From a virus: a stretch of 30,755 nt of DNA. This document shows positions 24,851 to 30,755 of this stretch, piece by piece. Both the position numbers and the translations under genes were made by a program. Location of the stretch: positions 1 to 30,755 of IMG/VR virus record IMGVR_UViG_3300044643_000203, one strand, 5' to 3'. How positions within the stretch are numbered: the stretch's first letter is position 1; each line of letters begins with the position of its first letter. The notes below the pieces were generated by a model. It was not told the DNA's origin and made no database searches. It saw nothing but the letters and a program-made list of their open reading frames with translations.

Positions 24851-25405
24851 CTTATCAAATACCATAATTGTATATCCAAACCAAGACGCATTTGTTGCAG
24901 CGTCCCTAATTGTTTGAGAGTCCTTTACGTTATGCTTAAAACCTCGGTCAACAATTTGTGCAATAATATAATCGTTGTTTTTACAATTTACGTGTCCGCT
25001 TCCTCCTTGGCCCTCAATCGCCCAGCTAATAACCAAATGCTTTTTTGCGTGCTTTGTAATGTTGTCAATAAATTGCTCCTCAAATTCAGCTGGAATATGT
25101 TCGCCAACTTCCAATGACAAAACAATGTCAAATTTTTTACCTAAATAAAATGGCTTTGACAAGTCTAGCACTTTGGCAATACCTCCGCTTAGCGTTTCCG
25201 TATTAGGGTTGCCGTCGTATGCCTCCACCTTGTAACCGTCAGCTTTAAAAGCTTTTGCATAGTCACCCATACCACAACCAAAATCGACAACTGTTTTGGC
25301 TTGCTTATCGGCTAAATACTGACACAATGCAGCTGAAATGCTGCGGTCGTGAATGTGTCCTGTTTCGTCTGTTGTCTCCCAAAATCCCAAATCGTTAATT
25401 TTCAT
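24845..25405 (-). CDS. Class I SAM-dependent methyltransferase, 186 aa
   Basis: Rossmann-fold methyltransferase: motif I VVDFGCGMGDYAKAF (about residues 39-53), acidic residue in VEAYDGNP after strand 2, and DIVLSLEVGEHIP, the type-11-like motif, near 95-107. The C-terminal part WAIEGQGGSGHVNCKNNDYII resembles small-molecule or sugar methyltransferases more than DNA methyltransferases, as no (D/N/S)PPY catalytic motif is present. The ATG at 25405 is preferred over one at 25471, which would run into the upstream terminator. The gene is isolated between two terminators like a moron. The substrate is unknown. Confidence 0.85.
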   Translation of the reverse strand: MKINDLGFWETTDETGHIHDRSISAALCQYLADKQAKTVVDFGCGMGDYAKAFKADGYKVEAYDGNPNTETLSGGIAKVLDLSKPFYLGKKFDIVLSLEVGEHIPAEFEEQFIDNITKHAKKHLVISWAIEGQGGSGHVNCKNNDYIIAQIVDRGFKHNVKDSQTIRDAATNASWFGYTIMVFDKV

Positions 25406-25429
25406 ATTTAATTTTTTTTTTAAAGTTAT

Positions 25430-25456
25430 AAAAAAACCTTGACCACTTAGCCAAGG
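25430..25456 (-). terminator. Intrinsic terminator ending the replication/regulator operon
   Basis: The minus-strand RNA forms CCUUGGC-UAAGUG-GUCAAGG (7 bp including one G-U) followed by seven U. It lies 29 bases after the stop of the 83-aa gene and 25 bases before the methyltransferase start. A weak TAACTTTA box behind it could restart transcription. Confidence 0.82.
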
Positions 25457-25484
25457 CTTTTCACTTAACAAAAACCCAAAATAA

Positions 25485-25736
25485 CTACATTAATATAATC
25501 GTTTGTCCCGTTGGCTCGCCGCTAAAATTGCAGATCTTTCCGTTCCATTCAAATCTAACCTCTTTCTCTCGTCCTTGGTAAGCTGCTGCCAAAGTTCTTA
25601 TTTGGCGCTGGACCAGTTCGATGCATTCAAATTTACCCTTTCCTTTATTTGACCAAGGCGACCAATTACCGTCGCGTAATCGGTAACGAATCTCAAGCGA
25701 ATAATCAGGTTTTGTAATCGGGTAACCTTTAGCCAT
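25485..25736 (-). CDS. Hypothetical protein after the XRE gene, 83 aa
   Basis: No family recognised. The sequence MAKGYPITKPDYSLEIRYRL is followed by a Trp/Gly-rich stretch (DGNWSPWSNKGKGKFE), a basic helix with RQIRTLAAAYQGREKEV and a hydrophobic end (GEPTGQTIILM). It looks like a small mixed alpha/beta protein. It overlaps the XRE gene by eight bases, so the two are likely expressed together. It is the last gene before a terminator. It may act with the regulator, but this rests only on linkage. Confidence 0.65.
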   Translation of the reverse strand: MAKGYPITKPDYSLEIRYRLRDGNWSPWSNKGKGKFECIELVQRQIRTLAAAYQGREKEVRFEWNGKICNFSGEPTGQTIILM

Positions 25737-25932
25737 CTTTTCTTTTTATTACTACCTCCAAGCCAATCTCGTCGCAAATCTTGCGCAAGTTAAAAAGGCT
25801 AATTGATTCTAAGCCATTTTCAACGTGGTTAATTGGCGCCGCTGAAATGCCTAATTTATTGCAAAGTTGCAGCTGTGTAAATCCAGCTTGCTTGCGCGCT
25901 TTCCTTATTAAAATTCCTTCGTAAATGCTCAT
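25729..25932 (-). CDS. XRE-type helix-turn-helix regulator, 67 aa
   Basis: Cro/CI-like DNA-binding domain filling nearly the whole protein: helices IRKARKQAGFTQLQLCNKLG (about residues 9-28), the recognition helix SAAPINHVENG and the closing SLFNLRKICDEIGLEVVI. No second domain, so it is a Cro-size regulator. It has its own promoter (25949) with an inverted repeat that overlaps the -7 box and reaches the start codon, fitting autoregulation. It could time the switch between early and late genes. There is no integrase, so a lysogeny role is less likely. Confidence 0.88.
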   Translation of the reverse strand: MSIYEGILIRKARKQAGFTQLQLCNKLGISAAPINHVENGLESISLFNLRKICDEIGLEVVIKRKDG

Positions 25933-25953
25933 TTGCTTAATCTTTACGCAAAT
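25931..25953. promoter_or_regulatory. Inverted repeat ATTTGC-N11-GCAAAT at the XRE promoter
   Basis: The arms ATTTGC and GCAAAT lie 11 bases apart. One overlaps the TATATTTG -7 box and the other overlaps the ATG of the XRE gene. This is where an autorepressor would bind. The arms are short, so chance is not excluded. Confidence 0.45.
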
Positions 25954-25976
25954 ATAAGGTTTCGGTTTTATTCAAA
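25949..25976 (-). promoter_or_regulatory. Promoter of the XRE gene (TTG-N16-TATATTTG)
   Basis: TATATTTG (25949-25956) is a full match to the Bacteroidota -7 box TAnnTTTG, with TTTG 16 bases upstream. The start codon is 17 bases downstream of the box. The same TTATATTTG string forms the promoter box at 28260. Confidence 0.7.
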
Positions 25977-25996
25977 GTTATAAAGCGGTTTTTTGT

Positions 25997-26338
25997 TTAA
26001 AATGGCAACATTTGATAAATGCCCATTTGTAAAAACTCTTCACCTTTTTTTACAATACATTTCCGAACGTTAAGCTCGAAAACATTAGAATCGTTAAAGC
26101 CGTATTTTTTTTGCGCTAGGTCAAGAAGTAATTTAACGGGATTGTCTAGGTCGCTGGCTTTGTTGCTAAATCCAAAGAAAAACTCAACGCGTAACATTTG
26201 GCTTGTGTCTACCTTTGACGCTGGCATACGCAAAAGCATTGCCTTTTCGTATTCTTTGTAAGCTGGCGTTTTAAAACGTTTTCCTTGCCAAGCCTGGTTA
26301 ACGCTCAAAGGCTTTTCGTTTATCTTAAATTGAATCAT
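25997..26338 (-). CDS. rusA: RusA-like Holliday junction resolvase, 113 aa
   Basis: Small endonuclease that cuts four-way junctions before packaging. RusA features: N-terminal KPLSVNQAWQGKRFKT, central strand RVEFFFGFSN, then SDLDNPVKLLLD (the conserved Asp pair) and a YGFNDSNVFELNVRKCIVKKGEEFLQMGI end. The ATG at 26338 is chosen because it overlaps the stop of the 49-aa gene by ATGA, while an upstream TTG would be longer by two residues. It lies in the replication block. Confidence 0.9.
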   Translation of the reverse strand: MIQFKINEKPLSVNQAWQGKRFKTPAYKEYEKAMLLRMPASKVDTSQMLRVEFFFGFSNKASDLDNPVKLLLDLAQKKYGFNDSNVFELNVRKCIVKKGEEFLQMGIYQMLPF

Positions 26339-26484
26339 TTGCAACGCTCATAAATCCAAGACCAGGCCAAAGTCCACAAAGCCAAGCAGACCATAAAAAG
26401 CAGCAAACTAGAAACCTTTAGCAACGCCAGTAAGGCAATGCCTACCAGCGCCACAAAGATTGCGTATAAATCGTTTTTTTTCAT
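26335..26484 (-). CDS. Small two-span membrane protein in the replication block, 49 aa
   Basis: A 49-codon frame that fits exactly between its neighbours: its ATG follows the SSB-like stop directly (TAAATG) and its stop overlaps the RusA start by ATGA. Two hydrophobic segments (YAIFVALVGIALLALL and LLLFMVCLALWTLAW) with a charged start (MKKND) and end (YERCK) make a hairpin membrane protein. A membrane protein among replication genes may attach replication to the membrane or exclude other phages, but there is no direct evidence. Confidence 0.72.
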   Translation of the reverse strand: MKKNDLYAIFVALVGIALLALLKVSSLLLFMVCLALWTLAWSWIYERCK

Positions 26485-26775
26485 TTAGAAAGGTAATGCG
26501 TCGTTTTCAACTATTCGCTTCTCTACTGGCTTAAAATTGCCCTGATTTTTATTTGCAACTTGTAAGGATTCTTTTTGCCATACTTCCAAATAATGCGTTG
26601 CCTTGCCTTCTACTTTTTCAGGTTTTTCCTTTACCGAAGAATTGACCCATTCAGCGTCGTTGTCGTTTAGGTATTTCAATAGGTTTTCCAGGTCTTTTCT
26701 TGACTGGCTAATTGTCCACAATTCGCCATATTTTGTGGTAATCATCTTTGCATTTCCGCCGTAAATCTTGCTCAT
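26485..26775 (-). CDS. SSB-like single-stranded DNA binding protein, 96 aa
   Basis: The last residues ENDALPF resemble the acidic tip ending in PF by which single-stranded DNA binding proteins recruit partners. The body is one short domain (NAKMITTKYGELWTISQSRK, a helix DLENLLKYLNDNDAEW and HYLEVWQKES), smaller than a bacterial SSB, with a Lys/Pro linker before the tip. The replication block, with ERF and RusA nearby, supports an ssDNA role. The fold was not confirmed, so this is a moderate call. Confidence 0.65.
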   Translation of the reverse strand: MSKIYGGNAKMITTKYGELWTISQSRKDLENLLKYLNDNDAEWVNSSVKEKPEKVEGKATHYLEVWQKESLQVANKNQGNFKPVEKRIVENDALPF

Positions 26776-26786
26776 AATTGTTTTGG

Positions 26787-27416
26787 TTAAATTAATTTAT
26801 CTAAATTTTTATTGTTTTTAATTGCGTCCAAAATAAACAATTTCCAAATTTTATTCTTTGTTTTGGCCCCAACTGTTGACTCTTCAACGTAACGGGTTGT
26901 CAATCGCAATTCTTTTCGCGCGTCGTTTTCTATTTGCTCAACGTTAAACTCCCAAGGTTTTAAAATTCCTTTTTCTTGAAACTTATTAAACCAATTTATT
27001 CCCCATTCTGCAATATCTCTACAAAAGCCAGTTTCTTTTGCGTGCTGGTAATTGTCTCTAAATATCTGTTTTCCAATTTCTATCCAGTACGCAATCTCTT
27101 CGGTTGTTGGCTCTTTTTCTTTGTTATTTAAAGCTTGCACCTCTTGAACGATTTGGCTTTGGTGGTGTGCGTAATATTGATTTATCCAAACGCTAACGGT
27201 CTTCTCGTTTACGTGGTAAAAATCTCCATACTGTCCACGCATACCAGCGTGCAAAATGTAATCAACTCTTGCCTCTGACATCCAGCCATAAGAGCCAAAC
27301 AATTTGCTAAGGCATCCAAGTAATTCGTTTGCCTCTTCTTTCTTGTATTCTTTAAACTGCTTTAGTCCGCAAACAAACTCCATTTTTCGGAGGTGTGTTA
27401 AAATAATCTCATTCAT
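26787..27416 (-). CDS. Replication-block protein, possibly helicase loader-like, 209 aa
   Basis: No clear family. Helical and soluble. The region WMSEARVDYILHAGMRGQYGDFYHVNEKTVSVWINQYYAHH (about 45-85) recalls proteins next to the replication initiator in Bacteroidota prophages. It continues with TEEIAYWIEIGKQIFRDNYQ, GINWFNKFQEKGIL and ends KIWKLFILDAIKNNKNLDKL. There is no Walker motif, so it is not a helicase or a DnaC ATPase. It follows the DUF4373 replication gene with an eight-base overlap, which suggests a partner role such as loading or scaffold. An ACACC element lies upstream of its ATG. Confidence 0.55.
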   Translation of the reverse strand: MNEIILTHLRKMEFVCGLKQFKEYKKEEANELLGCLSKLFGSYGWMSEARVDYILHAGMRGQYGDFYHVNEKTVSVWINQYYAHHQSQIVQEVQALNNKEKEPTTEEIAYWIEIGKQIFRDNYQHAKETGFCRDIAEWGINWFNKFQEKGILKPWEFNVEQIENDARKELRLTTRYVEESTVGAKTKNKIWKLFILDAIKNNKNLDKLI

Positions 27417-28161
27417 TGTTTAGGTGTTTTTGTCGTTGTAAATCCTCGTAAAGTTCGTCGAATACATTTTTTGTTTTGCTTTCTTTTTTTGGTACTGGGT
27501 TGCCTCTTTTTACCCAATTAAAAAAATGCTCTTTGGCAAGCTTTTCATTTTCTTTAAAATCTGCTTTTAAAATGCATTCAAGTCTAAAGGTATTCAAATG
27601 GTTTTTAACTTCTTTTAAATCTGCTTTCCAATTTAAAGCTAATCCTTCCAGCCAAATGTTATTATTCCATAATTGTCTAAAAATCGCATTATGTAAATCC
27701 TCATTTACTTTACTTTCTTTTATTTGATTTTCTTTTATTTCTTTTCCTTTACTTTCCTTTAATTGCATTGCATCCGCATTGCCATCGCTATGCGTTCGCA
27801 TTGCGTTCGCATCAATGTCTCGATTCCATCGTTTCTTAGCTGATTCTCTTGCCTTTTCTGAACGCTCTTCCTTCAATTCCATACGCTTTAATAGGCTTTC
27901 AGACCAAAAATATTGCTCGTCTAATTTGAATAAATCAAATTCATTAATTAGCTTTTTTATGCTATCCTCATGCGTTTGCAATGCAAATGCAATGCCTTTG
28001 TAATGCGTTCGCATACGAAAGTCGCTTTCGTTTCTTAGCATTTCAATTATGGCCCAAAAAAGACCATAACCCTCCCAACCCATTTCCATTCGCAATTGCA
28101 AAATTTTGGGGTCATCTTTCGCATTTGAATCGTGCGAAAAGTAATAAGCCTCTTTTTTCAT
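27409..28161 (-). CDS. DUF4373 (Lin1244/Lin1753-like) replication initiation protein, 250 aa
   Basis: N-terminal domain of the DUF4373 type: YYFSHDSNAKDDPKILQLRMEMGWEGYGLFWAIIEMLR (about residues 6-43), a winged-helix-like module common at the start of phage replication proteins. Residues 105-150 are a low-complexity, charged linker (SAKKRWNRDIDANAMRTHSD; LKESKGKEIKENQIKESKVN). The C-terminal part has NTFRLECILKADFKENEKLA and HFFNWVKRGNPVPKK. Probably binds the origin or loads the host replisome. The leader RNA with a terminator ending eight bases before the ATG suggests attenuation or translational control. Confidence 0.82.
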   Translation of the reverse strand: MKKEAYYFSHDSNAKDDPKILQLRMEMGWEGYGLFWAIIEMLRNESDFRMRTHYKGIAFALQTHEDSIKKLINEFDLFKLDEQYFWSESLLKRMELKEERSEKARESAKKRWNRDIDANAMRTHSDGNADAMQLKESKGKEIKENQIKESKVNEDLHNAIFRQLWNNNIWLEGLALNWKADLKEVKNHLNTFRLECILKADFKENEKLAKEHFFNWVKRGNPVPKKESKTKNVFDELYEDLQRQKHLNNE

Positions 28162-28168
28162 GTAAAAT

Positions 28169-28253
28169 AAAAAAGCCTGCCAGGTAGGAGTCTGACAGGC
28201 TAGGTTTAGTTAACCTATGGAATCATTTTTGGCTCCTACCTCAAAAATAATTC
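28169..28253 (-). ncRNA. Structured leader RNA/attenuator or small RNA before the replication gene
   Basis: A transcript from the promoter at 28260 would be about 85 nt to the U-run. It contains: an element AGGUAGGAG (28241-28233); a hairpin UAGGUU-AACUA-AACCUA (28217-28201); and immediately after it a terminator GCCUGUCAG-ACUCCUAC-CUGGCAGGC (28200-28175, 9 bp with one G-U) with six U. The loop and start of the 3' arm read CUCCUACCU (28190-28182), complementary to AGGUAGGAG over nine bases. Pairing with it would break the terminator or form a pseudoknot. AGGAG is also placed as a ribosome site for a micro-ORF AUG-AUU-CCA-UAG. All seen directly; the function is inferred. Confidence 0.7.
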
Positions 28254-28259
28254 GATGTA

Positions 28260-28287
28260 CAAATATAAACATTTTACATTTATCCAA
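28260..28287 (-). promoter_or_regulatory. Promoter for the leader RNA and replication genes (TTG-N17-TATATTTG)
   Basis: TATATTTG (28260-28267) is a full match to TAnnTTTG, with TTG 17 bases upstream (28285-28287) and an alternative TTTG at 21 bases. This is the best promoter in the window. It lies just after the 49-aa HTH gene and about 100 bases before the replication gene. Confidence 0.75.
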
Positions 28288-28429
28288 CCAAACAACGCTT
28301 TTTTAGTTGAAAATAAATGCAACCATAAGACAAGCCCATTTCGTGGGCAATTACTTTTATTTGCTTGCGGTCTTGCCAAGCTTCAAATATTAACTCCTTT
28401 TGGTATTCAGTTAGATTTCGTCCCCTCAT
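28280..28429 (-). CDS. Small helix-turn-helix protein, 49 aa
   Basis: A 49-codon frame overlapping the end of the preceding gene by 23 bases, with its stop inside the promoter spacer of the leader RNA. The protein MRGRNLTEYQKELIFEAWQD... is a short three-helix unit with TEYQKELIFEAW then QIKVIAHEMGLSYGCIYFQLKKR, a homeodomain-like HTH (IAHEMGLS as turn and recognition start). It could regulate the promoter right next to it. Support comes from the coherent HTH pattern and position. Confidence 0.65.
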   Translation of the reverse strand: MRGRNLTEYQKELIFEAWQDRKQIKVIAHEMGLSYGCIYFQLKKRCLVG

Positions 28430-28772
28430 GGTCATTTAAAATTTGTTCAATAGCTGCTAAACAGTTGTGAAATATATTGCCGCCTTGGTCAATTGAATTG
28501 TGCAAGCGTTCAAATAAAGTTACAAACTCGTGAAACTGCTTAATTGTTGCCTCGCCTCCGTCGTAATTTTCCAGGAACCTAAATGCCTCTGTTGACTTAC
28601 GTTTTAAAGCGTTAATCATGTTTTTATGCTTAGTTTTTAAGTCGCCGTCGAAAGCTTTAAGCATGGTTACGTCCTCGTAATAATCCAACATAATTTCTTG
28701 GAGGGCCAAGTAAACCAAATACTTTTGTGTTGCTCGGTGGTTAAGTTCCAAAATTGCTTCCTCGCGTGTCAT
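28407..28772 (-). CDS. Hypothetical helical protein, 121 aa
   Basis: No family recognised. Almost all helical and charged: MTREEAILELNHRATQKYLV, DYYEDVTMLKAFDGDLKTKH, STEAFRFLENYDGGEATIKQ, then FVTLFERLHNSIDQGGNIFH and a C-terminal AIEQILNDHEG. Two Gly-rich turns (DGGE, DQGGN) separate the helices. No membrane segments. It is within the early block, coupled by a four-base overlap to the HTH gene upstream and overlapping the 49-aa gene downstream. An early accessory or regulatory function is possible but not shown. Confidence 0.65.
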   Translation of the reverse strand: MTREEAILELNHRATQKYLVYLALQEIMLDYYEDVTMLKAFDGDLKTKHKNMINALKRKSTEAFRFLENYDGGEATIKQFHEFVTLFERLHNSIDQGGNIFHNCLAAIEQILNDHEGTKSN

Positions 28773-29020
28773 AAATCTAATTTAATTTTTTCCGCAGCCT
28801 CACGCATTTTTTTATTTAAACAAGTGTAACGTGCAACTCGTTTTCCGTTTTCCAAAGTTACCATTTCAGTAATTATGTGAAAACCTTCGTTTTTAAGGTT
28901 GGCAATTCGAGCCGCCAGCCTAAAGCATCCAAACTGGGTAAGTGCCTCTAATTGAGTTAATGAATAGCCATTTAAAAGCCAGCCTTTTATCAGCGCGTTT
29001 TGTGAGTCGGTGCTTTCCAT
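28769..29020 (-). CDS. Helix-turn-helix domain protein (HTH_39-like), 83 aa
   Basis: Resembles the phage helix-turn-helix family in which a winged helix is followed by a strand pair: DSQNALIKGWLLNGYSLTQLEALTQFGCFRLAARIANLK (about residues 5-43), then GFHIITEMVTLENGKRVARY, the wing. The end is basic (KKMREAAEKIKL). It is likely a small DNA-binding protein used in early regulation or in DNA handling. It overlaps the next gene by four bases and is linked to the previous one by one base. Confidence 0.78.
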   Translation of the reverse strand: MESTDSQNALIKGWLLNGYSLTQLEALTQFGCFRLAARIANLKNEGFHIITEMVTLENGKRVARYTCLNKKMREAAEKIKLDL

Positions 29021-29319
29021 TAATTTAAATAGTTTAAAAGTAAAACATTGGCCTTAGTGTACTCGTCCTTAAACTCTTGCTCGCTGATTGGCACTAACTG
29101 TTGTTTAATGCTTTCGTCATACCATCGGGCAGCGGAATAGCTAATTTGTGCAATTGAAATTTCGGGATAAACTAGCAAACTAGATTCCAAATTAGCCTTG
29201 ACAAACAAATAGGTTTTGTCGTCCAAAATCATTTGGTAATGATGTCCAATTTTAAAGTACTTAGGCACGTTAAATTCGGTTTCGACAAAGTGCGTGGTTT
29301 TAATTTTAATCGTTTCCAT
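29020..29319 (-). CDS. Hypothetical early protein, 99 aa
   Basis: No family recognised. Beta-rich start (METIKIKTTHFVETEFNVPK; FKIGHHYQMILDDKTYLFVK) followed by a helical end with ISYSAARWYDESIKQQLVPI, EQEFKDEYTKANVLLLNYL. Soluble. Two copies of the AAACACC leader element precede it, one ending a single base before the ATG. It shares a one-base overlap with the HTH_39-like gene downstream. Confidence 0.68.
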   Translation of the reverse strand: METIKIKTTHFVETEFNVPKYFKIGHHYQMILDDKTYLFVKANLESSLLVYPEISIAQISYSAARWYDESIKQQLVPISEQEFKDEYTKANVLLLNYLN

Positions 29320-29339
29320 AGGTGTTTAATTTTAGGTGT

Positions 29340-29429
29340 TTAAGATAATTTTAAGCCAAGCATATAGAACAAGGCGAAAATTGGTGCAAAAGCTAAAATT
29401 GCGTAAAGGATTTTTCCAATGATTTTCAT
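29340..29429 (-). CDS. Tiny membrane peptide, 29 aa
   Basis: A 29-codon frame in the 168-base gap between larger genes. The peptide MKIIGKILYAILAFAPIFAL then FYMLGLKLS is one hydrophobic span with a Lys-flanked start. An AAACACC element ends one base before its ATG, as at other early genes here, which is the main evidence that it is translated. Function unknown. At this length chance is not excluded, yet the leader match and membrane pattern support it. Confidence 0.55.
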   Translation of the reverse strand: MKIIGKILYAILAFAPIFALFYMLGLKLS

Positions 29430-29487
29430 GGGTGTTTGGTTTAAATGTTTGACAATATTAAAAAGAATCTAAGAAATAAAAAAGATT

Positions 29488-29820
29488 TTATACTTTTTTT
29501 TCAATCATGTTTTTTGATTCTGCCACGTCAAGCAACTTTTTAACTTTTTTAAATTCCAAGTTTTGGTCTTCTGCTATTTCTCGGCAGCAATAACCGTAAG
29601 TCGCCAAAGTTAAAATCCTACTAATTTGGTGGTCTGTTAAAATCTGAAAAATATTTTCGTCTATTAATTTTCTTGGGTAAATCTCGTGAAGCTTCATTTT
29701 TGTATAAAGTAGGTAACCAACTTTTTGCGCATCCAAGCCAAGAGTTTTTGCTATTTTTTTGCGAGTCAATCCCTCAAGGTAAAGGCACTTAATTTTTTGC
29801 ATTATCTCGCAAGTTTCCAT
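29488..29820 (-). CDS. Protein with two HTH-like segments, 110 aa
   Basis: Two similar helix-turn-helix-like units: LTRKKIAKTLGLDAQKVGYL (about residues 18-37) and YCCREIAEDQNLEFKKVKKLL (about 77-97), each with the I/A-A----L or I-AE-----F-KVK turn pattern, joined by a linker (MKLHEIYPRKLIDENIFQIL). A tandem DNA-binding protein of this size suggests an early transcription regulator. It overlaps the 45-aa gene by 19 bases. Exact family not recognised. Confidence 0.68.
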   Translation of the reverse strand: METCEIMQKIKCLYLEGLTRKKIAKTLGLDAQKVGYLLYTKMKLHEIYPRKLIDENIFQILTDHQISRILTLATYGYCCREIAEDQNLEFKKVKKLLDVAESKNMIEKKV

Positions 29821-29939
29821 AATCTTTCAAAGGTTTCGTTAAAAGGTAATTTTTCTTTGTCGTAGGTGGAGGCGACACCTTTTGGCGCCAAGTCTCCTGG
29901 GCGCTTAATGAATTTGCCTAAATAGGTGTAATTGCTCAT
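29802..29939 (-). CDS. Small early protein, 45 aa
   Basis: A 45-codon frame linked to the Gp157 gene by an ATGA overlap and ending inside the next gene. The protein MSNYTYLGKFIKRPGDLAPK then GVASTYDKEKLPFNETFERL ends WKLAR. No family recognised; basic, Pro- and aromatic-rich with a short C-terminal helix. Overlap with both neighbours and sensible composition make it likely real. Confidence 0.68.
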   Translation of the reverse strand: MSNYTYLGKFIKRPGDLAPKGVASTYDKEKLPFNETFERLWKLAR

Positions 29940-30421
29940 TTTATTGATAAGTTAAAGTTTTCGATTAGTCTTGCGCCAGTCACATTTTCGCCGCGTTTAA
30001 TTGCGTCCTTAATTGCTAATTTGTCAGCGGTTACCACGTTTTTAATGTTTATATATTGGCTAGGTAAAGCCTCCACAATGTCAACCTCGACGGACTCGCT
30101 ACGGCGTAAATAAAGCTTAAATAAAGGGCTTTCTATTTTATCGATGGCACTTACTAGCATTGCCTCCCTAACCGCGTCCTTGAGCCTTGTAACGGCTCGG
30201 TCCTTGCTTTCCTTCATTGCTTTAAGTCGCTTAATTTCTTGGTCAATTGCATCGCTATCGCTTTGGATGTTTGAAATTACCTTGGCATAGTTGCCAGCCT
30301 TTGTTTGAAGTTGCTCTTGATTAATTACTAGCATTTGCTCCAACTCAGGCGTTAACTCCTCGTTTTCAAGTAGGGAGGCAAGTTCCAGCGCCTCCCTTGT
30401 TATTTCGTATAAATTTGCCAT
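29936..30421 (-). CDS. Gp157-like protein (Siphovirus Gp157 family), 161 aa
   Basis: Coiled-coil protein of the Gp157 type found next to recombinases in many phages. The N-terminal helix LYEITREALELASLLENEEL, then the family core NQEQLQTKAGNYAKVISNIQSDSDAIDQEIKRLKAMKESK (about residues 34-73), another helix with RLKDAVREAMLVSAIDKIES, and the C-terminal LYLRRSESVEV, VNAL-type strand and GARLIEN. Function is unclear; a streptococcal relative is linked to phage resistance when cloned. It shares one base with the ERF stop. Confidence 0.9.
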   Translation of the reverse strand: MANLYEITREALELASLLENEELTPELEQMLVINQEQLQTKAGNYAKVISNIQSDSDAIDQEIKRLKAMKESKDRAVTRLKDAVREAMLVSAIDKIESPLFKLYLRRSESVEVDIVEALPSQYINIKNVVTADKLAIKDAIKRGENVTGARLIENFNLSIK

Positions 30422-30755
30422 TATAGTAAGCCGTCTAAAGTGTCCGTTTGTTCCTGCGTCAATTCGTATTTAGTCAAAGCGTCTTTGGCTTGCTTTCGCT
30501 GGGCATCCGTTCCGTTTAAATAGCGAACGATGTACGCAAATTGCTCGTCTGTTGGCTTGGTTTTTACAACCGCTGCAACCTTTGGTGAATGGTCATTAGT
30601 TGCGTCAGGGTCTTTCGTATCATCGATAAGAAAAAGACCGTTAAGCGCATACTTTCGAGCGTAACTAGACGACGAGCCGAACGACTGCGCTACGTCCATG
30701 CCTTTGCGGTTTATGTCAATGCCAGCCTGGGCCGTTACCGCTCGGCCTTCCATGT
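30421..30755 (-). CDS. erf: ERF family single-strand annealing protein, C-terminal part (split by contig ends)
   Basis: Downstream part of the gene at 1-339. The first 42 codons here repeat residues 72-113 of that part, and the last 68 codons (DDTKDPDATNDHSPKVAAVV to DGLL) complete the 181-aa protein. The apparent ATG at 30753 is internal, so it is not the start. The C-terminus is a charged tail with EQFAYIVRYLNGTDAQRKQA, likely a helical partner-binding region. The base difference at 127/30754 changes GAT to GAC (both Asp) if the base before is the same. Confidence 0.87.
   Translation of the reverse strand, partial: MEGRAVTAQAGIDINRKGMDVAQSFGSSSSYARKYALNGLFLIDDTKDPDATNDHSPKVAAVVKTKPTDEQFAYIVRYLNGTDAQRKQAKDALTKYELTQEQTDTLDGLL
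30628..30753. repeat. Terminal direct repeat, right copy
   Basis: Identical to bases 1-126. Together with the left copy it defines the circular unit of 30,627 bp. Confidence 0.93.

Follow-up and report, generated by a model that had tools for sequence, protein, structure and literature searches.

A barcoded RNA with complementary hairpin and terminator loops lies ahead of phage replication genes

The virus record IMGVR_UViG_3300044643_000203 of IMG/VR, a stretch of 30,755 bases that is referred to here over its full length as the window, displays a gene order of the tailed-phage type and carries nearly all of its genes on the minus strand. Directly before its replication gene, the minus strand encodes an RNA that lies between its own promoter and its own intrinsic terminator. 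What is the role of such an RNA in front of a phage replication gene? We find, with near certainty, that the RNA consists of three hairpins, P1, P2 and the terminator P3, and that the loop of P1 is joined to the loop of P3 by a helix that covaries among related leaders. The same architecture recurs in unrelated sequences, and we propose that the RNA controls the replication gene or operon that follows it.

Structure of the RNA in the window

The minus strand, to which all coordinates below refer, presents in order the promoter TATATTTG, hairpin P1, hairpin P2, the terminator hairpin P3, a U-run and the ATG of the replication gene. The promoter sequence is a Bacteroidota-type -7 element at 28260..28267. 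The whole modeled structured RNA spans 28169..28255 and matches covariance model R1, which was built from 52 relatives, with 98.5 bits. Its minimum-energy fold consists of P1, P2 and P3 (-31.3 kcal/mol, z = -4.8), and none of 200 shuffled sequences folds as well. P1 is composed of the 5' arm GAATTATTTTTG (28242..28253) and the 3' arm CAAAAATGATTC (28220..28231), both placed by a covariation alignment in which 96.5% of the cells are paired and 7 of the 12 pairs undergo two-sided changes. The P1 loop displays the element X1, GUAGGAG (28233..28239), whose central letters AGG are termed the barcode. P2 (AGGTT AACTA AACCT, 28202..28216) is a small and weak hairpin of about -2 kcal/mol. P3, which was located by a terminator search and has a covarying stem, is a hairpin of 9 base pairs (bp), GCCTGTCAG / CTGGCAGGC, with a loop of 8 nucleotides (nt) at 28175..28200, and it is the strongest terminator detected within 25,000-30,755. 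Its loop contains the element X', CUCCUAC (28184..28190), which covariation identifies as the partner of X1 and which is its complement. The terminator ends in six U (28169..28174), 8 nt short of the replication-gene ATG (28161).

A sequence-only reading of this locus had already placed the promoter, the hairpin ahead of the terminator, the terminator and the ATG where we find them, and the 9-nt complementarity that it described between AGGUAGGAG (28241-28233) and CUCCUACCU (28190-28182) is exact. It had proposed that the upstream element could remove the terminator through a 9-bp helix. P1 encloses AGGUAGGAG, and the 5' element is therefore itself a hairpin loop. The invading helix is possible in the window, but only about half of the related leaders can form it, so it is not conserved: leaders with the barcodes AGG and GAG can, whereas GGU leaders with CA and most CGG and CGC leaders cannot. 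The covarying version is instead the pseudoknot that uses the loop only, which had been offered as a third fold. Thus, the proposed switch is possible for the window, and the conserved element is the loop–loop helix. The same reading had also suggested that a ribosome on a micro-open reading frame, AUG-AUU-CCA-UAG, could choose the fold. The AUG is present in the window, but it lies within the 3' arm of P1, and the relatives do not conserve it; among 130 leaders, an AUG occurs near loop 1 in 72 and the complete AUG-AUU-CCA-UAG in 24. Ribosome-chosen folding is unlikely for this reason.

Covariation and barcodes of the loop–loop helix

Homologs of the window RNA, which form class I, were collected through a search with the replication protein, which yielded 68 IMG/VR loci with the same RNA in their upstream regions, and through a DNA pattern of the terminator, which yielded 91 contigs; two further protein searches widened the set. 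A scanner that looks for a terminator loop with a complementary 7-mer 15-75 nt upstream returns 226 family matches, each in a locus of its own, from 3.06 Mb of related loci, compared with a single match in 0.71 Mb of shuffled control. In total, about 230 homologous class I leaders from uncultured phages retain the 7-bp loop–loop pairing. Of the 138 class I leaders, 128 carry a promoter element of the form TAnnTT[TC][GA] at a distance of 27-34 nt on the upstream side of X1, as against 12% of shuffled windows.

The loop–loop helix is 100% paired in all 52 distinct aligned class I sequences, which fall into alignment A3 (33 sequences) and alignment A4 (19 sequences whose loop is shorter by 2 nt). 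The central three pairs of the helix in A3 vary by two-sided changes in 19, 14 and 3 sequences (G-C/A-U/C-G, G-C/A-U and G-C/C-G) and never by a one-sided change, and a U-A pair is exchanged for A-U in seven A4 sequences. The covariation score of the whole A3 structure, 0.328, is matched by none of 500 shuffles, and a one-column shift of the partner reduces pairing in A3 from 90% to 46-55%. The most direct case is provided by the leaders L298 and L399, which are the same from P1 through the U-run except for a compensated U/A swap, GUGGAAG/CUUCCAC versus GUGGUAG/CUACCAC. The compensatory changes on which the sequence-only reading had staked its claim are present, and the claim survives. RNAalifold without pseudoknots recovers P1 alone from A3, because the loop–loop helix cannot be represented in that model and the MAFFT alignment shifts P3.

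Class I uses six barcodes, GU[AGG/GAG/GGU/GGA/CGG/CGC]AG in X1. The barcode label changes at least 20, 27 and 9 times on three replication-gene trees, to which recombination contributes, and 14 times on the tree of the RNA itself with the barcode masked, compared with about 53 changes for shuffled labels. A second barcode target encoded by the phage was considered and rejected. Across 26 near-complete genomes, a phage's own barcode shows no enrichment outside the RNA relative to foreign barcodes (extra copies of X, 0.35 for the own versus 0.86 for foreign barcodes; complement, 0.62 versus 0.61), and on the transcribed strand of the window the barcode and its complement have a single occurrence each. 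It follows that loop 1 covaries with the terminator loop of its own RNA, either in cis or in another copy of that RNA. The class I RNA itself is located only directly before replication genes in these 26 genomes.

A side feature of P1 concerns its third pair from the loop (window 28244 / 28229; columns 12/27 of A3 and 12/25 of A4). This pair is a C-A mismatch in 10 of 33 A3 sequences and non-standard in 18 of 19 A4 sequences, and it is standard among AGG and CGG leaders. It may represent a conserved mismatch that is linked to the loop type.

The absence of a described family, as the sequence-only reading had stated, holds in our searches of Rfam 15, where the whole window has no match and the RNA region reaches at best 25.8 bits against a threshold of 60. 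BLAST retrieves no homolog of the window RNA from named phages, plasmids or bacterial genomes. The RNA is likewise not found in 395 Bacteroidota genomes with the covariance model or in GTDB contigs with a sequence pattern, an empty result that proves little. A 33-bit covariance-model match in the L446 genome lacks the GUNNNAG loop pair and was taken as chance, and the matches listed for the pattern GAGGTNNGAGNC...CTCNNACC in viral contigs are mostly chance as well. The open-access literature, to which our search was confined, yielded no account of this layout. The RNA family is very probably undescribed; its general kind, an RNA attenuator or dual leader and small RNA, is known, and its distinctive trait is the recurring barcoded architecture.

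Recurrence in unrelated sequences and genomic setting

Is the pairing of a 5' loop with a terminator loop a peculiarity of one sequence family? At least three further classes, II, III and IV, share the architecture in unrelated sequence. None of them matches an Rfam 15 covariance model at the gathering threshold, and none has a counterpart of P2. Class II was compiled from 76 pattern stretches, which represent about 48 distinct real leaders (L510-L520 and L579-L654; e.g. L649:3460-3600). It consists of TATATTTG, a short hairpin, an A/U-rich linker and then the terminator, and the promoter element TAnnTT[TC][GA] is found at the class I distance from X1 in 51 of 53 leaders. The hairpin loops GUUGCAG, GUGCAG, AAGCAG and AGGCAG correspond to the terminator apical loops CUGCAAC, CUGCAC, CUGCUU and CUGCCU. 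Class II is further distinguished by a third barcode copy, X3, which equals X1 and stands directly ahead of the start codon of the replication gene in 44 of the 47 real leaders; L588 and L610 have none, and L641 has a different barcode. No class I or class III leader has a third copy at the start codon.

Class III reverses the polarity of class I, with pyrimidines prevailing in loop 1 and purines in the terminator loop. Among its distinct upstream regions, 22 of 36 score, a few of them by chance, compared with 10 of 225 shuffled sequences, and at least nine barcodes occur in 15 individually checked leaders. Several of these leaders (L660-L705, e.g. L687:1390-1500) are separated from the replication gene by a small open reading frame (ORF).

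Class IV comprises 46 records and is carried by cultured Flavobacterium phages of the hosts LMO6 and LMO9, in which it lies upstream of the replication region. The four inspected leaders (L739-L742; MN812220, MN812237, MN812219 and MN812212) are intergenic and precede replication genes. Their loop pairs, GUGAGACG/CGUCUCAC in lillamy, GUGGAACG/CGUUCCAC in mumin and snusmum and GUGAGAAG/CUUCUCAC in morran, are all fully compensated, which gives class IV three barcodes and two compensated changes of its own. These Flavobacterium phages are described as virulent and as having no lysogeny genes (PMC7077304). A further unrelated case is likely rather than certain in Flavobacterium phage 11b (AJ842011, L656:1242-1347), where CGGGCAGG in the loop of a 7-bp hairpin and CCUGCCCG in a terminator loop precede a DUF6291 gene. 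The reservation is due to the background of the scanner, which gives nine other matches in 784 kb of phage genome and three in an equal length of shuffled sequence. In classes I, III and IV, whose sequences are unrelated, one strand of the loop helix is nearly always purine-rich and begins with 5'-GU, and the other ends with AC-3'.

The gene behind the window RNA (27409..28161, minus strand) encodes a Lin1244_N/DUF4373-type replication initiation protein of 250 amino acids (PF14297, E = 9e-13; phrog_2562, annotated as replication initiation protein, E = 5e-24). Across class I, the downstream gene is of three kinds, namely Lin1244/DUF4373, DUF6291 (PF19808, E = 2e-24) and a protein resembling a 'replisome organiser', which has no Pfam match and has relatives with annotations as DnaD-like or as replication proteins. 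The RNA is therefore tied to replication genes as a class and not to one protein. In nearly all class I relatives, the replication ATG lies 5-13 nt 3' of the U-run, in agreement with the attenuator layout that had been proposed for the window, and the replication gene consequently cannot be transcribed without passing the terminator.

On its upstream side, the RNA adjoins a gene for a small helix-turn-helix (HTH)-like protein of 49-51 amino acids (28280..28435, minus strand; weak HTH matches in relatives, PF13936, E = 1e-6), which is found next to the RNA in the inspected class I loci regardless of the downstream gene. The three replication genes are swapped behind one conserved cassette of RNA and HTH gene (e.g. 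L078, L097 and L115), and the RNA therefore marks a recombination boundary in class I phages. In L278, an insert of about 450 nt, which seems to hold another ORF, parts a CGC-type RNA (1966-2054) from the replication gene (2501). The terminase gene of the window is located at 23.3-24.6 kb, and the RNA lies at 28.2 kb within the replication operon. Positions 1-128 of the window recur at 30628-30755 (about 128 nt, not wholly identical), which suggests a circularly permuted, nearly complete genome.

A model for replication control and its alternatives

How could pairing between two loops of one transcript affect the gene behind it? We propose, at a probability of roughly 0.55, that the RNA is a phage-encoded, self-contained leader and small RNA that controls the replication gene or operon, in which the X1:X' helix tunes read-through of the terminator, the released RNA pairs in trans and, in class II, translation is controlled as well. 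Transcription would start at the TATATTTG promoter, and P1 would display X1 in its loop. X' would then emerge as the loop of the terminator hairpin and form 7-8 bp with X1. The polymerase reaches X' ahead of the 3' arm of the terminator, so that the X1:X' helix can form first. It would compete with the terminator or delay it, so that some polymerases read through to the replication ATG, while the remaining ones terminate and set free an RNA about 90 nt long. In the simplest reading, the loop–loop helix would set the share of read-through as an RNA-only attenuator. The released RNA carries both loops and could therefore pair in trans with the nascent leader of another genome copy, which would close a feedback loop and make the system autoregulatory. 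In class II, X' could also pair with X3 over the replication start codon, and translation is therefore probably controlled too. The regulation of read-through, the sign of its effect and action in trans as opposed to cis are what we infer. The mechanism is supported by the three kinds of replication gene that the RNA precedes and by the repetition of the architecture in unrelated sequences.

Folding calculations bear on this proposal from both sides. In mid-transcription folds without pseudoknots, the X1:X' helix is the transient minimum in 56 of 89 leaders, and 88 of 89 end in the terminator fold. By rough estimate, a stack of P1, the loop helix and P3 spans about 78 angstrom, whereas the linker reaches about 48 angstrom with P2 folded and about 120 with P2 open; in the absence of P3, the two loops can pair with ease. 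This geometry suggests that cis pairing in class I would compete with P2 or with full closure of the terminator, or that the pairing is intermolecular. Several points weigh against the proposed control of read-through. The transient X1:X' fold is uneven across barcodes (1 of 10 GGA and 5 of 15 CGG leaders), and a closed terminator could in principle coexist with a kissing complex, in which case pairing might leave termination unaffected. The short RNA and the read-through transcript are both predictions from sequence. Moreover, class I lacks the third barcode copy that class II has at the start codon, and the classes may not share all steps.

The structured leader or small RNA with its own promoter and terminator that the sequence-only reading had seen ahead of the replication gene is supported by these results, and in a rival reading it would act on its own. 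In that case, a stable, compact RNA or a dimer would result from the loop pairing and would target a host RNA or protein, with the terminator serving only as its 3' end and leaky constitutive read-through feeding the gene. The promoter, the strong terminator, the stability expected of a compact fold with a 7-bp kissing helix and the retention of the RNA when the downstream gene is swapped agree with such a role. We consider it rather unlikely, given that every class stands directly before replication genes and the RNA never occurs elsewhere in the 26 near-complete genomes, that class II links the barcode to the replication start codon and that a function outside the operon leaves the constant placement of X' in the terminator loop unexplained. 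A tentative alternative places the whole effect in trans: the released RNA would pair only with leaders of the same barcode and stop transcription of the replication gene, as barcode-specific replication control or superinfection exclusion. Plasmid antisense RNAs, which set incompatibility groups, and the CI RNA of phage P4, which sets immunity, would be the analogs. The diversity of barcodes (six in class I, four in class II, at least nine in class III and three in class IV), their frequent switching on the replication-gene trees and the position of the changes in the helix center point in this direction, as does the strain that the geometry suggests for a cis kiss with P2 folded, which would favor intermolecular pairing. 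However, the barcode set is small and could be yielded by compensated drift, these phages have no sign of lysogeny, and cis pairing is kinetically favored, with the geometry being a rough estimate.

Translational control is a possible explanation, albeit short of an even chance. The terminator hairpin beside the AUG, or X':X3 over the start in class II, would block ribosomes on read-through mRNA, and X1:X' would free the start. The short distance between the U-run and the ATG and the barcode-matched X3 right before the class II ATG fit this explanation, but X3 is missing from classes I and III and from the class II leaders L588 and L610 and is mismatched in L641. A metabolite riboswitch, or a ribosome-mediated attenuator that reads the micro-ORF, is highly improbable. 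Riboswitches do have loop–loop tertiary contacts and the micro-ORF is kept in some leaders, but the RNA has no conserved unpaired core, nearly all of its positions being helical and variable, most leaders have no micro-ORF, and Rfam gives no match. Functionless chance complementarity deserves practically no credence, since it is refuted by the covariation controls, in which no shuffle attains the observed score and slid structures lose pairing to at most 55%.

Precedents for the proposed control of read-through combine its elements differently. The attenuators of pT181 (cited in PMC10724649) and pIP501 share with the RNA described here a replication-gene leader whose intrinsic terminator is chosen by RNA–RNA pairing; their partner is a divergently transcribed antisense RNA, whereas both partners reside in one transcript here. 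The phi29 pRNA is also a phage RNA with two complementary loops that are able to kiss between molecules, but it serves packaging and has another sequence and structure, whereas the present RNA belongs to the replication operon of siphovirus-like phages. For mutual action between a short RNA and the mRNA made by reading through its terminator, IsrK of the Salmonella prophage Gifsy-1 appears to be the nearest characterized precedent. In IsrK, short and long forms arise from one promoter by partial read-through of an intrinsic terminator into an ORF, and the long form is the base-pairing target of the short one (PMC4825925). A phage RNA with a same-strand intrinsic terminator between promoter and downstream ORF is found here as well. 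IsrK differs in its long helices and in activating orf45/anrP, and so antQ, instead of a replication initiator (PMC4825925); it is a single locus and not a barcoded family, and the passages on it describe no pairing of a 5' hairpin loop with the terminator loop. Where RNA alone controls phage replication genes through premature termination, the nearest precedent is probably the CI RNA of phage P4, whose seqA/seqC arrangement resembles the class II order X1 - X' - X3 (summarized in PMC4825925). In class II, X1 lies upstream and X3 downstream of X', whereas class I has no downstream copy. CI RNA arises by processing of a longer transcript and provides lysogenic immunity (PMC4825925), whereas the complementary segment here forms the loop of an intrinsic terminator and the characterized phages are virulent. 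In IncI-alpha/IncB repZ, a leader loop forms a pseudoknot with a segment further downstream and thereby gates the replication initiator, with the loop letters as specificity; this control is translational and relies on a leader peptide and the opposite-strand antisense RNAI, with no terminator (PMC10724649). Unlike IncI-alpha, class I has no conserved leader peptide and no conserved antisense promoter, an antisense -7 box inside the RNA being present in just 1 of 138 leaders.

Loop–terminator pairing exists in at least four forms that share no sequence, an indication that one architecture has been used convergently. To our knowledge, regulatory RNAs of Bacteroidota phages are almost unknown. 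Because class IV is carried by cultured virulent Flavobacterium phages with known hosts, it can be tested at the bench now. On a speculative view, which we regard as doubtful, barcoded kissing-loop RNAs would be widespread in lytic Bacteroidota phages and gate their replication operons, with a code of 6-10 letters in the 5' loop, in the terminator loop and sometimes at the start codon; the short RNA would act in trans as a brake on copy number or superinfection, and the codes would define incompatibility groups among virulent phages. If the proposed control of read-through is true, lytic phages could set the dosage of their replication genes without a protein repressor, and their leaders would offer a natural set of orthogonal RNA switches.
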